Shown here: one piece after another, positions 23,803 to 58,440 of the stretch
How the letters are laid out: each line of letters begins with the position of its first letter
Numbering within the stretch: position 1 is the stretch's first letter
Source: Prolixibacteraceae bacterium
Lineage (GTDB): Bacteria; Bacteroidota; Bacteroidia; Bacteroidales; Prolixibacteraceae
DNA length: 64,000 nucleotides
NCBI GenBank assembly: GCA_028282705.1
Contig: JANQHI010000081.1
Location: 1 to 64,000, forward strand
Direction of reading: 5' to 3'
Position numbers and translations under genes: made by a program
Notes under the pieces: generated by a model
The model's database searches: none
Seen by the model: only the letters and a program-made list of their open reading frames with translations
Told to the model about the DNA's origin: nothing

Positions 23803-23829
23803 AGCCATACCTTTGGGTATGGCTTTTTT
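23803..23829 (+). terminator. Intrinsic terminator of the OmpA-like gene
   Basis: AGCCATACC, a TTTG loop and GGTATGGCT form a perfect nine-pair stem followed by a run of T. Confidence 0.93.
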
Positions 23830-47149: not shown

Positions 47150-47575
47150 TGTTGCTGTTTAATTAGGTTATTTTTTATAAAAATAGAAAAAAATGTGGTT
47201 GATGTAAGGGTAAAAAGCTTCTTGTATGTCTTAACAATAAATTGAATTTAAAATAATATCACTATCACCCTTTTAAAAAGCGGAATTAACCTTTAAGGTT
47301 CATAGTTTAGTTATAAAGATTGGCAGGGTGCCCTAAGGTGGGCACCCATTTTTGTTTTAAAAAGTGTTTTTACTTTTAGTACCTAACCCCTTGAATCCTT
47401 TCAGTTAAAATAAAAGTGGGCTGCAAACAAACTTTGATAAGTTTTTTTTATATTAGTGAAGTTATCTGGAAATTTATGGAAAAAATTTACATCCAATTTT
47501 TAACTTTCCTGCAACTAACCTATCCACCAAATGATCCACGGAAACTTTATTAGAAAAAACCAAAAACTAAATATT
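47150..47575. other. Divergent gap between sulfatase and Omp85 genes
   Basis: 426 AT-rich bases with no ORF. AACCTTTAAGGTT at 47288-47300 is a perfect 13-base palindrome, and a terminator-like hairpin follows at 47326. Both lie far from either start codon, so a small untranslated RNA or a long leader is possible. Confidence 0.45.
47326..47358 (+). terminator. Orphan terminator-like hairpin
   Basis: GGGTGCCC, six bases, GGGCACCC and then ATTTTTGTTTT form a textbook plus-strand terminator with eight G-C-rich pairs. No plus-strand gene lies upstream of it; the nearest gene upstream is the divergent sulfatase. It may end a small RNA or attenuate the Omp85 leader. Confidence 0.65.
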
Positions 47576-48907: not shown

Positions 48908-48911
48908 GGTG

Positions 48912-49228
48912 TTGTACCTAAAGGCACAAAGCAATGGATAGGGGTTTGATCTATGAATAAGTTGTCCCTAATGGGACAATAATTAGTATTGTGATAATAC
49001 AAAAATTCCAATATGGAGGAATTTGAATATACATTTTCAAACTTTGAAGTTTGATATAATTCAATTATTATCCCAGCAATAGTGAATGTTGCTATATTGA
49101 ATTTCTTGCTGAGATTTTTTGGGCAAAAAGTAAATTCTCAACTTATGTAACATACTTTTTATTCATCCTGGAGGGATGTAATATTTATAGAAATTAATGA
49201 AGAAAATAGGCTAGCCCTTTAGGAGCTA
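48912..49228. repeat. Array of short covarying palindromes, locus A
   Basis: A gene-free 393-base gap holds a series of short hairpins. They are TTGTACC-TAAA-GGCACAA at 48912, TTGTCCC-TAAT-GGGACAA at 48962, AAATTCC and GGAATTT at 49003-49024, CAAACTT-TG-AAGTTTG at 49038, AGCAA and TTGCT at 49075-49093, CATCC and GGATG at 49164-49178, and an imperfect TAGCCC-TTTA-GGAGCTA at 49212. Centres of the first three are 50 and 43 bases apart, and the last two are 49 apart. After the sixth comes ATATTTATAG. The arms vary but stay complementary. The same pattern occurs at 55.9-56.1 kb. No ORF is supported here. Confidence 0.7.
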
Positions 49229-49300
49229 AATATTTTAGCTACCTAAAATATAAAGCCTGGCCAAAAGTAAGCTAACCCATTTTCAACCAGGCCTTAACCA

Positions 49301-52804: not shown

Positions 52805-53788
52805 ATGAATACTAATTTCTGGCAGCAATTTAAGGGACCTGTATTTTCATTGGCTCCCATGGAAGATGTTACTGACACAGTTTTCCGCGAAATTGTGTTG
52901 AGGATGTCAGCACCAGGTAAGTTGCATGTAGTTTTTACTGAATTTAGCAATGTGGAAGGGCTTAACCATCCTGTTGGTAGGGATAGGGTTTCAGAAAGGC
53001 TGATAATAAATAATTCTGAATTGTTGTTGCTTAGAAAGATGGGGGTTAAGTTAATAGCCCAGATATGGGGCAAAACTCCTGAAATATACCACTCAGTAAC
53101 CCAATGGATAACAACCAACTACCCATTTGATGGGATTGACATTAACATGGGATGCCCTGTAAAAAAGATTGTTAAGCAGGGAGCATGCAGTGCATTGATA
53201 GGCCAGCCAGGGTTAGCCAGGGAAATCATAACTGCAGTGAAAGAAGCAACCCACCTGCCAGTGAGTGTTAAAACAAGGACAGGCATCAAACAGCATGTTA
53301 CTGAGGAATGGATCAATACATTGCTGGAAACAAACCCTGCAGCCATAATCTTGCATGGTCGCACACAGCAGATGCAGTCTGATGGGGAAGCCAATTGGGA
53401 AGAGATAAGGAAGGCTGTGGAGTTGAGGAATGCAATTAACCCTGGTATCCCTATACATGGGAATGGTAATGTTTTTTCATACCAGGAAGGGCTTGAACGT
53501 GTACAATCAACAGGTGTTGAAGGAGTGATGGTAGGAAGGGGGATTTTTAAAAACCCCTGGTTCTTTGACCCAGAAAGGCTATCTGTTTCTAAAGAAGAGA
53601 GGGTACAAAAGCTATTGGAACACACCAGGCTGTTTGAGGAAACTTGGTCGGGGAAGAAAAATTTCAATATCCTGAAAAGGTTTTACAAAATCTACATCAA
53701 CCATTTTGATGGGGCTGGGAAAATCAGGGCAGATTTAATGGAGGCAACTGGCTTTAAGGATGTTTACCACTATTTTGGAAGCCAATAG
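52805..53788 (+). CDS. tRNA-dihydrouridine synthase
   Basis: A 327-residue flavoenzyme that reduces uridine in tRNA. SLAPMEDVTDTVFRE is the family start, and DINMGCPVKKIVKQGACSAL holds the catalytic Cys. SVKTRTG, ILHGRTQQMQ and HGNGNVFSYQEG, then GVMVGRGIFKNPW, build the FMN site. It is of the DusA/B/C superfamily; which uridine it modifies is not clear. Its 3' end overlaps the convergent TonB receptor gene by 35 bases. Confidence 0.94.
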   Translation: MNTNFWQQFKGPVFSLAPMEDVTDTVFREIVLRMSAPGKLHVVFTEFSNVEGLNHPVGRDRVSERLIINNSELLLLRKMGVKLIAQIWGKTPEIYHSVTQWITTNYPFDGIDINMGCPVKKIVKQGACSALIGQPGLAREIITAVKEATHLPVSVKTRTGIKQHVTEEWINTLLETNPAAIILHGRTQQMQSDGEANWEEIRKAVELRNAINPGIPIHGNGNVFSYQEGLERVQSTGVEGVMVGRGIFKNPWFFDPERLSVSKEERVQKLLEHTRLFEETWSGKKNFNILKRFYKIYINHFDGAGKIRADLMEATGFKDVYHYFGSQ

Positions 53789-55865
53789 AAACTGACAAAT
53801 AATAATTCCTTGGGTTTCCGGGATAAAAATACCTGGGGGCATTACCACCAAATGAAGGGGAATTTACTGCCAGCATGGAAGCATGGTTTACATCCAATAT
53901 ATTGTTTGCACCTGCTTTCAGGTTGAAATGTAATTTATTCCAATTTTTGTGGAAAACTACATTTAGGTTGGTTACCCCATATGGATCTGTATAACCTGAA
54001 TTCAGGTCATTAACAGGCATTTTGCCTGACAAATGCTGGCTTAACTTAATATCCATTGTTTCATTCACGGAAAAAGATAATCCTACATTCCCTGAAAACT
54101 TTGTGGTTCCTGGTAGCTGGTTTCCTGAATAATCTTTGCCATCATCTACAAAATCAGTAAAATGGTAGTTTGCCAAAGTGGTGTTTGCATAAAAAGATAC
54201 AGATGGGTATGCTCCAGGTGTAGTAAGAAACCCCTGGATGAATGATTCAAGCCCTGGGTGTACTGACCTTCCTGCATTGACCCCCACATAGGCATCTTCA
54301 GCAGTTCGCCTGGCTACCAGTAAATCAGAAACATACATCCTGTAATAGCTGGCACTAAATGTAGCCCAATTGCCAATATTCCCTTTGATGCCTGCCTCCA
54401 GGTTCCAGCCTTTTTCAGGTTTAATGTTTGGGTTTATGTTACCTTCAGGATACAATGTTTCTTCAAGGGTAGGGGGTGAGAACCCATGGCTTAGGTTGGA
54501 AAAAACAGCTAAATTTTTCAGGATTTTATAATTGATGCCCAACCTCTGAGAAACCACTGGGTCATATGAATGCTTCCCTGACTGGTCGCCATTGGCTAAA
54601 AATGAGTCAAGGTATCTATACCTGGTTCTATTCAGGTTGGCTCCAACAGAAAGGTTAAATTTATTAACTTTTGTTATTTCCCCTTGTATGAAGAAATTCT
54701 CATAATCCCTGTTTTCTTTGTTATCAGAAAGCTGGCTGCCCTCTCCATTTGAAAAAGTTCCCCATTTGTATGTTTCCCTGAAAATTTCAAATCCTGCTAC
54801 CAGTTTAATGCCCAATGCATCTATTTTGAAAGCTTGTTGAAAATTGCCCCTTGTACCAACTGCCCATGATGACTCAACCAGCTTATTGAATGGGCGCAAT
54901 TCATCAGCCTCTCTAAACTGCCCAAAAACTGAAACAGTTGCATTTGAAAGTGTTCCAGTGTTGGTTTTTGCTGATATTCCTGCCTGCCCTGTTGTATAAT
55001 CCTCAAACCCTTTTACTTCTTTCCAATTGTTGGCAGCTTTCCAGGGGGTTTCTTCAAACATTCGCCTGTTTATTGAGCTGGGGATAAAAGCTTTCATTTT
55101 AGTGAGCCTGGCCAACACAGAAGCTGAAACTTTATCACCTTTAAAAAGGGTGCTGTGGACTAAAAAATTCTTACGCGTGGTTCTGTTATTTTTCCTATAT
55201 CCTTCACGTTCAAGGTTTGATAACAGAGCATAAACAGATGCATTTTTTAATGTTGTACCTGCTGAAAAGGTTTGTTTTGAGGTATTGAATGAACCTGCTG
55301 TATTTTCAATTTTGATAAAATCCTGAGTGGGGAAAACAGGGTAAAAGATAATAGCACCTCCCAACCCTGCACCATATACTGTTGAAGTGGGACCTTTAAT
55401 TATTTCAACTTTGCTTACTCCTGATGTTTCCAGGTCCTCAAGGGTAGTTTCACCATCACCAGTGGTCAGTGGGATATCTCCAAAATAAGCCTTTATCTTA
55501 TAAGTAGAATAAGGTGACCTTGAACCAACGCCCCTTATGGTCAACCTGTTGGTATTCAGGCTGCCATGGTGCATATTTATACCTGAGACTGAATTCAGGG
55601 CTTCAACTGGTGTTAGTAAAACCCCTTTTGCAAGTGTTTCTTGGGTGATATAACCCACTGAGGCGGAGATGTCCAGCCAGTTGGCTGGAAGCCGGAATGC
55701 TGAAATTATTATTTCTTCAATGGCTTGCATAGAGCTAGAAGTATCTGTGCGTGAAATGGTATCAGGCTGTACTTCAGGGGTTGCAAAAACTGGCATTGCA
55801 ACCATAAAATTCAGCCATAAAATGGAAAATATGAATATGCTTTTAAGCTTCTTTGCCTTTATCAT
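53754..55865 (-). CDS. TonB-dependent receptor, siderophore or metal-complex type
   Basis: A 703-residue receptor with a signal peptide ending in VFATPE. The plug (about 50-180) contains EALNSVSGINMHHGSL, LTIRGVGSRSPY and VEIIKGPTSTVYGAGLGGAI, and the barrel follows. The overall pattern resembles the FecA-like siderophore receptors. The final strand reads YYLSVSIGFQ, and seven further residues (NSGKHP and a stop) extend into the end of the dus gene. It has no SusD partner, and the ligand is unknown. The gap upstream carries the palindrome array. Confidence 0.9.
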   Translation of the reverse strand: MIKAKKLKSIFIFSILWLNFMVAMPVFATPEVQPDTISRTDTSSSMQAIEEIIISAFRLPANWLDISASVGYITQETLAKGVLLTPVEALNSVSGINMHHGSLNTNRLTIRGVGSRSPYSTYKIKAYFGDIPLTTGDGETTLEDLETSGVSKVEIIKGPTSTVYGAGLGGAIIFYPVFPTQDFIKIENTAGSFNTSKQTFSAGTTLKNASVYALLSNLEREGYRKNNRTTRKNFLVHSTLFKGDKVSASVLARLTKMKAFIPSSINRRMFEETPWKAANNWKEVKGFEDYTTGQAGISAKTNTGTLSNATVSVFGQFREADELRPFNKLVESSWAVGTRGNFQQAFKIDALGIKLVAGFEIFRETYKWGTFSNGEGSQLSDNKENRDYENFFIQGEITKVNKFNLSVGANLNRTRYRYLDSFLANGDQSGKHSYDPVVSQRLGINYKILKNLAVFSNLSHGFSPPTLEETLYPEGNINPNIKPEKGWNLEAGIKGNIGNWATFSASYYRMYVSDLLVARRTAEDAYVGVNAGRSVHPGLESFIQGFLTTPGAYPSVSFYANTTLANYHFTDFVDDGKDYSGNQLPGTTKFSGNVGLSFSVNETMDIKLSQHLSGKMPVNDLNSGYTDPYGVTNLNVVFHKNWNKLHFNLKAGANNILDVNHASMLAVNSPSFGGNAPRYFYPGNPRNYYLSVSIGFQNSGKHP

Positions 55866-55943
55866 TCAAATTAGGAATTTCCAATATATTACGTTTTACA
55901 TAATAGATTGTTCAATATAAAAGTCAAAGCCTTGGAAATATTT

Positions 55944-56100
55944 AACCCTTAAAGGGGTTGATAATCTTCATGACACCTTTTCTATAAATAGGTTATCCCT
56001 CTGGGATATTTTTGTTAGTTGTAAATTTTAATTTTTACCCCATTGGGGTAAAATATTTGTAGCATAATAATTTTTAGAGAAGGTTAGTGCCATAGGCACT
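55944..56100. repeat. Array of short covarying palindromes, locus B
   Basis: Four hairpins follow each other: AACCC-TTAAAG-GGGTT at 55944, TATCCC-TCT-GGGATA at 55994, ACCCC-ATT-GGGGT at 56037 (arms extend four more pairs, nine in all), and AGTGCC-ATA-GGCACT at 56086. Centres are about 50, 42 and 50 bases apart. Spacers are AT-rich; after the third comes ATATTTGTAG, matching ATATTTATAG in locus A. Each unit keeps CC-loop-GG with a three- to six-base loop, but the outer pairs differ, so pairing is conserved and sequence is not. Confidence 0.75.
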
Positions 56101-56310
56101 GAATATAAGATAATTATTTCTCAATAAAGGGTATAGGACCAGAAATTGTGTTGTAAATCCTTCATTGCAAATGAGGGGAGTATAATAAAGCTGTATTTAA
56201 AAAATCTAAATGCTTTTGTGGCTAAAGGCATTTACCTGAATATTGCCACTAATTCATAGGATATTCACAGGGTATTTGATCAGTATATTTCTTTATTTGG
56301 CAACTTCTAT

Positions 56311-56344
56311 AAAAAAAGAAAGCCGGGAATTTTCATCCCCGGCC
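56311..56344 (-). terminator. Intrinsic terminator of the S9 peptidase gene
   Basis: On the minus strand GCCGGGGAT and ATTCCCGGC pair around a four-base loop and are followed by TTTCTTTTTTT. Confidence 0.9.
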
Positions 56345-56369
56345 TCTTAAGTTAGGTTCAGGAGTGGGC

Positions 56370-58253
56370 TTATTTTAAATGTGCATCAAGGAATGTCAAT
56401 ATCTGCCCATACCCCTTGATCTCATTTTCTTTTTTAACAAATCCATGCCCTTCATCAGGAAACAGGACATATTCAACAGGCACACCATTAGCTTTTACTT
56501 TCTCCACAATTTCATCAGACTCAACCTGAAGTACCCTTGGGTCATTAGCCCCTTGCAGTACCATCAAAGGTTTAGTAACATTTTCAGCATGGAATAGTGG
56601 GGAGATTTTGTGCAGCCTTACACTATCATCAGTAAATGGGTCACCCAGTTCTTCATACAATGCTTTCCTGGCTGATTCCCAATAAGGTGGGATTGATTTT
56701 AGCGTGCGCAACCAGTTGGTTACACCAAAAATATTCACGCCTACGTCAAAAGCTGCAGGTTCAAAAGCAAGTGCTGCCATCACCATGTAGCCACCATAAG
56801 AACCACCTATGATACCAACTTTTTCCATGTCAATGTATCCCAGGCTTGCCAAGTAATCTTTGGCTTTTATGCAGTCTTGCAAGTCACCCTCACCATGGTT
56901 TTTATCATCCATTTTGTAGAATGTTTTCCCATATCCACTAGACCCCCTGTTGTTAACAGCAATAATAGCATAATCGTGGTTAACCAGGAATTGGATCAAT
57001 GAAAAGTAACCTACCCTTGATTGCCCACCAGGACCGCCATGTACCCAAACCAAAGCAGGCACTTTGTTTTCTTCAGAGGCTGAATGAGGCTTGTAAAAGA
57101 TAGCTGGGATATCAACCCCATCAAAAGAAGGGTAACGCACAACAGTTGCCTGCACCAGGTCGTCTTCATTGATCTCAGGGTTGAGGGTATTGGTTAGCCT
57201 GTCCAGTTTTTTGGTTTCCAGGTTATAATAGTAAATATCACTTGGCGAAGTGGATGTCCCCACCCTCAGGCGCACTTTGGTTTCTGACCTTGAAATGCTA
57301 ACAGATGTGATATTACCACTTTCGAATGTTGGCAACTTAACTGCTTCTCCTGTTTCCAGGTCTTTCATATATACCACTGTTTTGGCATCTTCATTTACAC
57401 CTGTCACCCTGTATTTTTCATTAAAAGAATTGTATACATAACTTACATCCCAATCTGTTTTCCATACTTCTGATTTGTTGCTATCAGCCAGGCTGTATTT
57501 TACAACATAGGTAAACTCACTTCCTTCATTGGTGAGGAAATAGAGGTTTTTATTGGCAACATCAAAAAATTGTGGGCTGTATGTTGCATCTCCTTCATGG
57601 GCTGAAATGTGTTTTTGCTCACCCGTTTCAACATTGTAAAGGTACATTTCTGAGTTGGAGGTGGTTAATGGCTTCACCAATGCCAGGTATTTTTTGTCTT
57701 TGGAAATAGCTTCAACTTCATACCCTTCATTGTTTTCATAAACCAATGTTGGTTCAAAAGTTTCGATATTCATTTCATACAAGTCAAAGAATTTTGGGTC
57801 ACGCTTATTTGTAACAAAGAAAAATGATTTTAAATCACGTGCCCAGCCATAAAAAGCTGATTTTGAGCCATCCCATGGGGTAATGTCTGTAACATTCCCT
57901 TCAGTATCCTGAACATATAAATGGTCATTTTCGTCACCACCTTTATCATGGGTAAAGATAAAACGGTCGTCTTCAGGGAAAAATGTGACACCAAAGAAGG
58001 ACTCTTCTGTTGAATGGGTCAGCTGGTTCATTCCACTGCCATCAACAGCAAGGGCATACACATTAAAAATATCAGTTTCATTACTGGTAACCAAAAGTTT
58101 TGATTCATCTGCAGAAAACTGGCCACCATAAATGCTTTTGTTTTTATAGAATTGCTCTATGGTATATTTTGCTACAACCCTGGCTTCTTCTTTTTTTTGG
58201 GGCTGGCACGCACAAATACTTAAAATAATCAATGCAAATAGAAAGTTCTTCAT
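56370..58253 (-). CDS. S9 family prolyl oligopeptidase-like lipoprotein
   Basis: A 627-residue serine peptidase. The signal ends in ICAC (lipobox), which decides the ATG at 58253; the track ORF adds 45 unlikely residues. A seven-bladed beta-propeller-like region (residues 30-370, with repeated D.G...LT and WDGSK) is followed by an alpha/beta-hydrolase domain. The triad appears as GGSYGGYM (Ser), QGANDPRV (Asp) and DEGHGF (His). It likely cleaves short peptides in the periplasm. Divergent from the SDR gene. Confidence 0.94.
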   Translation of the reverse strand: MKNFLFALIILSICACQPQKKEEARVVAKYTIEQFYKNKSIYGGQFSADESKLLVTSNETDIFNVYALAVDGSGMNQLTHSTEESFFGVTFFPEDDRFIFTHDKGGDENDHLYVQDTEGNVTDITPWDGSKSAFYGWARDLKSFFFVTNKRDPKFFDLYEMNIETFEPTLVYENNEGYEVEAISKDKKYLALVKPLTTSNSEMYLYNVETGEQKHISAHEGDATYSPQFFDVANKNLYFLTNEGSEFTYVVKYSLADSNKSEVWKTDWDVSYVYNSFNEKYRVTGVNEDAKTVVYMKDLETGEAVKLPTFESGNITSVSISRSETKVRLRVGTSTSPSDIYYYNLETKKLDRLTNTLNPEINEDDLVQATVVRYPSFDGVDIPAIFYKPHSASEENKVPALVWVHGGPGGQSRVGYFSLIQFLVNHDYAIIAVNNRGSSGYGKTFYKMDDKNHGEGDLQDCIKAKDYLASLGYIDMEKVGIIGGSYGGYMVMAALAFEPAAFDVGVNIFGVTNWLRTLKSIPPYWESARKALYEELGDPFTDDSVRLHKISPLFHAENVTKPLMVLQGANDPRVLQVESDEIVEKVKANGVPVEYVLFPDEGHGFVKKENEIKGYGQILTFLDAHLK

Positions 58254-58440
58254 AGTGTAGTTTATTTTTATATGGTTAAAAGGACACATAAGATAAGCAA
58301 TTACGAGCGAAAATAAAAGTGGGCGTAATTTTCTTAAATTTTCTATTGACTGATAATTAGGAAGATAATAGATAAATAAGGCGAACATGTTTTAAGCTCT
58401 GTGTAAAACTATTATTTTTGGTTTTTATAATTTATTATGT

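Follow-up and report, generated by a model that had tools for sequence, protein, structure and literature searches.

A mirror-like four-hairpin intergenic repeat in Bacteroidota is associated with, and probably mobilized by, TnpA_Y1 subclass 1.2 transposases

The window (the whole 64 000-nucleotide stretch of DNA analysed here) contains a 504 bp gene-free gap at 55866–56369, flanked by two minus-strand genes, 53754–55865 and 56370–58388, which read as a TonB-type receptor and a peptidase respectively (names taken from the sequence, without a search). The gap holds locus B (55936–56112, + strand by nhmmer), a complete composite of four hairpins in the order hp1, tail'-hp2, hp3-tail, hp4. Hairpin 1, AACCCTTAAAGGGGTT (AACCC TTAAAG GGGTT, 55944–55959, no strand assigned), has the family form AACCCC TAAA GGGGTT. 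Hairpin 2, TATCCCTCTGGGATA (TATCCC TCT GGGATA, 55994–56008), forms a minus-strand unit with the inverted tail CTATAAATAG (55982–55991, − strand), the reverse complement of CTATTTATAG. On the plus strand, hairpin 3, TTTTACCCCATTGGGGTAAAA (TTTTACCCC ATT GGGGTAAAA, 56033–56053), runs into its tail ATATTTGTAG (56053–56062), and hairpin 4, AGTGCCATAGGCACT (AGTGCC ATA GGCACT), lies at 56086–56100. Both tails are exactly 8 nt from their own loop. The preliminary description of this DNA had noticed an ATATTTRTAG motif after one unit; this is the tail of hairpin 3, but the second, inverted tail preceding hairpin 2 had been missed. Two short conserved edges, AATATT outside hp1 (55937–55942, − strand) and GAATAT beyond hp4 (56101–56106, + strand), form the 5' and 3' borders of the copies in alignment A6. 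We read both as truncated tails, the former facing outward.

The hairpin centres are ∼ 50, 42 and 50 nt apart, in agreement with the earlier observation of four hairpins spaced by 42–50 bases in a gene-free gap, and each hairpin indeed has self-complementary arms around a CC-loop-GG core. Four such hairpins, each arm 5 bp or longer, were counted in the gap, compared with 0.10 expected from dinucleotide shuffles, and none of 2000 shuffles reached this number. The larger and more degenerate array at 48910–49241 (locus A) belongs to the same family, as the preliminary description had supposed for 48.9–49.2 kb. Part of it (49234–49121, − strand) was matched by an nhmmer profile of copies on contigs C21, C34 and C82 (E = 1.3e-5). 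Two hairpin-plus-tail units were found in locus A by our model R2: TTGTCCCATTAGGGACAACTTATTCATAG on the minus strand at 48948–48979 (E = 3.5e-5) and CATCC TGGAG GGATG TA ATATTTATAG on the plus strand at 49163–49193 (E = 7.4e-6). The unit model's top four hits in the 64 kb window were exactly loci A and B, and R2, whose 33 units include one from the source genome's C75 array but none from either locus, returned the same four with E-values from 3.1e-7 to 1.6e-4. At locus B these are hairpin 3 with its tail (56035–56065, + strand, E = 3.1e-7) and hairpin 2 with its inverted tail (R1 match 55979–56009, − strand; R2 E = 1.6e-4).

Further intergenic CC-loop-GG hairpins followed by T-rich sequence occur in the window at 23803–23824 and 47326–47347; these are probably ordinary terminators. 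No Rfam family scored above its gathering threshold in the window, and a sub-threshold match to U4 snRNA (RF00015; 21 bits against a gathering score of 46) at 55964–56092 was taken as chance. Inspection by eye, without a dedicated tool, revealed neither the identical repeats with spacers of a CRISPR nor an attC-like integron core.

A leave-one-out composite profile, built only from the copies on contigs C21, C34 and C82, matched locus B at 55937–56110 (nhmmer, E = 3.9e-15). Reading the copies side by side gave a mirror-like composite of ∼ 175 bp: hp1 (AACCCC..GGGGTT), hp2 with an inverted tail (ATCCC..GGGAT), hp3 with a tail (GCCCC..GGGGC) and hp4 (AGTGCC..GGCACT), the outer two hairpins being tail-poor. 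All four are present in the same order at locus B, which is ∼ 71–82% identical to nine other composite copies. The hairpins of locus B are thus not independent palindromes but parts of one copy of the composite. The preliminary description had taken their differing arms as covariation. Most of this difference simply reflects that each hairpin is its own component of an element whose order is constant from contig to contig; compensatory changes do exist, but between homologous hairpins of different copies.

The source genome (4.29 Mb in 85 contigs) has further copies, as had been anticipated. We found ∼ 16 composite places, some of them partial, in the portion of this genome that was covered, a lower bound like all composite copy numbers given for this genome. 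A covariance model of the hairpin-plus-tail unit found ∼ 30 places at E < 0.1 genome-wide. The composites sit in many unrelated gaps. In the 767 kb examined first there were six clusters of at least three CC-loop-GG hairpins, compared with 0 or 1 per shuffle, and by inspection all six belong to this family or to another locus of the transposase subclass described below. A search for the exact tail pattern was too strict to be informative in this genome (three matches vs 10 in a reversed control). Tails mostly point outward in the composites of the source genome but inward around the gene of the transposase described below, so that the mobile unit may be drawn in more than one way. An inward-tail composite, the reverse of locus B, has the best unit score of the genome (45.8 bits; L256/L298, G000:C7:22094–22237). 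The source-genome copies are diverged, and activity may be over.

Throughout the phylum the unit consists of a short hairpin and the tail ATATYKRTAG, which begins 8 nt past the loop. We collected 108 units from 50 loci by their C-run, loop, G-run and tail, with no requirement for pairing of the outer stem. The tail begins 8 nt past the loop in 100 of them, and stem pairs 3, 4 and 5 are Watson–Crick in 92, 94 and 89%, compared with 47, 70 and 47% after shuffling; the result holds when each locus is represented by a single unit. The covariation score of 36 units was 0.553 vs 0.220. In 15 aligned composite copies 89.7% of stem cells pair, whereas slid partners pair at ∼ 55% or below. Changes on both sides of a pair affect nine pairs and 16 cells, a result reached by none of 500 shuffles, although these counts are inflated since the aligned relatives are not independent. 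The compensatory changes that the preliminary description had proposed looking for are therefore found both among the composites and phylum-wide. These figures use a stem register anchored on the loop; an earlier, unfixed register had made the covariation test uninformative. The MAFFT alignments A2 and A3 were dropped because their loops were shifted, and loops of three bases were filled up with N in A4 and A5.

A linked transposase gene was also found. The source genome has eight Y1_Tnp matches, and one of these genes (C75:26504–26965) is flanked on both sides by hairpin-plus-tail arrays of the locus B kind. Its 153-residue product, P0001, carries the motifs DHVH, WQ and YIMNQEEHH, matches PF01797 (E = 8e-31) and is homologous to solved IS200-type transposases, including ISHp608 TnpA. 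It scores 80.2 bits with the IS200 model NF033573 and 26.3 bits with the REP-associated model NF047646, well below the cut-off of 80. TnpA_Y1 subclass 1.2 is defined by Y---Q--HH, DH[IV]H, WQ and a length of ∼ 148–150 residues, and is found mostly in Cyanobacteria and Bacteroidetes at low copy number (PMC6006769). Judged by its motifs, P0001 is a member of this subclass. Assignment to the RAYT/TnpA_REP class 2 was rejected, as P0001 has NQ instead of the NP of Y---NP and falls below the NF047646 cut-off. Of the earlier suggestion of a REP-like element moved by a RAYT, the REP-like character and the linked Y1 HUH enzyme hold, but the enzyme is of the IS200-like subclass 1.2 and is no canonical RAYT. 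No such units were found at the Y1 genes on C13, C70 and C79 of the source genome. Two more subclass 1.2-type genes of this genome, L023 (G000:C83) and L024 (G000:C35), are flanked by other hairpin types (GTTCCGTCAGGAAC and ACAGGGTTTTAACCCTGT).

In 2018 subclass 1.2 was described as generally lacking terminal secondary structures, with a 'no' in the corresponding table (PMC6006769), and a literature search covering main texts, with few subscription journals among them, returned no later paper giving it a repeat partner. We find units at most of the loci examined. R2 gave 233 matches at 80 subclass 1.2 loci, with at least one match at 69 of them and none at its threshold at the remaining 11. 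All but nine of the matches (224/233) are no more than 700 bp from the gene. Where an innermost tail could be scored, it faces the gene in 94 of 106 instances (p = 6e-17). Since R2 includes units from some of these 80 loci, the R2 counts are not fully independent; the following tests of tail and palindromes are. Near subclass 1.2 genes we counted 155 tail motifs in 157 kb, 125 of them with a stem of at least 5; beyond 1.2 kb from the gene there were 20 in 242 kb, two of them with a stem. Generic palindromes number 2.76 per 800 bp of gene flank, compared with 0.37 after shuffling and ∼ 0.55 further out. Among 37 loci of other Y1 genes there was no R2 match at E ≤ 0.1. In Bernardetia sp. Wsw4-3y2 (plasmid NZ_CP147018.1), a composite that faces inward and has the arms GTTGC/GCAAC precedes tnpA (WP_338815653.1). 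With units at 69 of 80 loci, the subclass 1.2 genes do have flanking structures; since these are not IS200-type ends, it is the description of the subclass that is corrected, and the membership of the genes is kept. Two cyanobacterial relatives that we examined showed no clear array. Repeated but quite different hairpins (AGCCACGAAGTGGTT, GGCGCGTAGCGCC, GGTGCAGCGCACC) flank the subclass 1.2 genes at L054, L055, L036, L045 and L053, which suggests that each enzyme lineage has its own hairpin.

Among 297 sampled Bacteroidota genomes, 153 have a match (E ≤ 0.001) to an alignment of subclass 1.2-type proteins, the weak ones possibly being other Y1 proteins. The exact tail pattern is only weakly linked to the gene in the whole sample (37/153 genomes with the gene, 24/144 without, p = 0.12); outside family f42 the figures are 31/135 and 7/97 (p = 0.001). 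The f42 genomes G070, G131 and G285 (loci L228, L224 and L222) are small and carry many dispersed GCCCCGTAGGGGCGGCATATCGGTAG units, and the only Y1 proteins in several f42 genomes are of a different, longer kind (ORFs of ∼ 330 residues). A genome of the same family as the source, G032, contains the exact pattern 12 times yet lacks any Y1_Tnp match. Its loci L004, L007 and L009–L018 include several symmetric four-hairpin composites, apparently an orphan family; orphans of this type could arise if the gene was lost once the repeats had spread. In Flavobacterium, genome G266 and its relative G431 have a four-hairpin composite directly past a stop codon, while in G448 and G408 these flanking genes are collinear and no composite lies between them. 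The comparison demonstrates that the composite was gained or lost, but not by what mechanism. At locus B itself the peptidase ortholog in G008 is, at 57% identity, too distant for an empty-site comparison.

These data are consistent with a model in which locus B is an old, degenerate, non-autonomous REP/BIME-like copy of a composite whose units flank subclass 1.2 genes and whose movement is likely due to that enzyme, and we hold this reading with considerable confidence. By analogy with the biochemistry of IS200/IS605 and REP systems (PMC8266576), the composites are probably mobilized by subclass 1.2 TnpA. The enzyme would bind the hairpins on single-stranded DNA, as the TnpA of IS200/IS605 and TnpA_REP do, and could measure how far the RTAG tail, which may serve as guide or cut site, lies from the loop. 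Cutting and rejoining at the RTAG tail would then copy or move composites into intergenic DNA. We infer that the copy at locus B was placed by the C75 enzyme or by its ancestor.

Three other explanations have to be weighed. That the hairpins are chance palindromes of AT-rich intergenic DNA has already been refuted and can be given practically no weight: single loose hairpins do occur genome-wide at about the shuffled rate, but no shuffle reaches the four hairpins of the gap, and the leave-one-out profile ties locus B to copies on other contigs. The array could alternatively act as RNA, being transcribed between the two genes to stabilize or terminate mRNA and kept for that function. The hairpins do lie downstream of a gene end, two of them fit a loose terminator consensus, and compensatory changes suit RNA and single-stranded DNA equally well. 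The downstream gene, however, already has a conventional terminator at 56319–56346, and terminators do not characteristically carry a short tail at a set spacing on either strand. RNA function would also leave unexplained why copies are found in many unrelated gaps and are concentrated at one transposase subclass. The RNA hairpin array proposed in the preliminary description thus gained no support, and the want of an Rfam family at gathering score points the same way; we regard this explanation as improbable. Neither chance nor a terminator nor an RNA family fits locus B.

Another enzyme, either a different Y1 protein or host processes, might instead move the composites, with the subclass 1.2 genes as frequent passengers or insertion targets. 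Genomes that carry the pattern without a subclass 1.2 gene, above all the many-copy genome without any Y1_Tnp match, would be expected in that case. However, such orphans would be accounted for by gene loss after spread, and passengers or targets would hardly produce the tight clustering and consistently inward orientation of the units at subclass 1.2 genes or their absence from other Y1 loci. We therefore consider a different enzyme unlikely too, if marginally less so than a role as RNA. Mobilization by subclass 1.2 TnpA, our preferred reading, provides a widespread transposase family, so far described as lacking a substrate, with a candidate one and offers a simple, testable recognition rule for it. 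On this reading, hairpin arrays between the genes of Bacteroidota can be mobile DNA and need not be unexplained RNA structures; if it is confirmed, class 2 is not the only group in which Y1 transposases came to be used in a REP-like way. On balance, and with some hesitation, we are inclined to go further and regard subclass 1.2, an orphan HUH family in Bacteroidota, as the driver of a distinct REP-like system whose evolution was separate from that of the RAYTs, with mirror-like four-hairpin composites and a rule of its own: a paired stem of free sequence, a loop and a 3' RTAG at fixed distance.

The closest parallels are the REP/BIME/REPIN elements with their TnpA_REP (RAYT), such as the E. 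coli REPtron, which share dispersed intergenic hairpins and a GTAG-like tag (PMC6006769, PMC8266576), inverted combinations and a Y1 HUH gene flanked by the same repeats. As with REPs, copies are dispersed and intergenic, in modest number (the composites plus partial ones) and not in hundreds. Canonical REPs, however, carry GT[AG]G 0–2 nt 5' of the hairpin foot, whereas here the tag is 3', 8 nt past the loop; the composite has four hairpins, and the enzyme has Y---Q--HH where RAYTs have Y---NP. RAYT group 5 (TnpA_REP subclass 2.6) likewise occurs in Bacteroidetes, with unusual flanking hairpins that have genomic copies and 'atypical secondary structures' (PMC6006769). It is a class 2 enzyme (YIH[QN]NP, ∼ 179 residues), and we set it apart by the enzyme. 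IS200/IS605 elements (IS608, ISDra2) have a related TnpA, subterminal hairpins and the single-strand chemistry to be expected here. They have one left-end and one right-end subterminal hairpin bounding tnpA and move as one unit. In our family multiple hairpins form inverted, inward arrays on both sides of tnpA, gene and arrays may still move as one unit, and most copies have no gene. The enzyme itself matches TnpA_Y1 subclass 1.2 (PMC6006769) in its ∼ 150 residues, DH[IV]H, WQ and Y---Q--HH motifs, occurrence in Bacteroidetes and low copy number.
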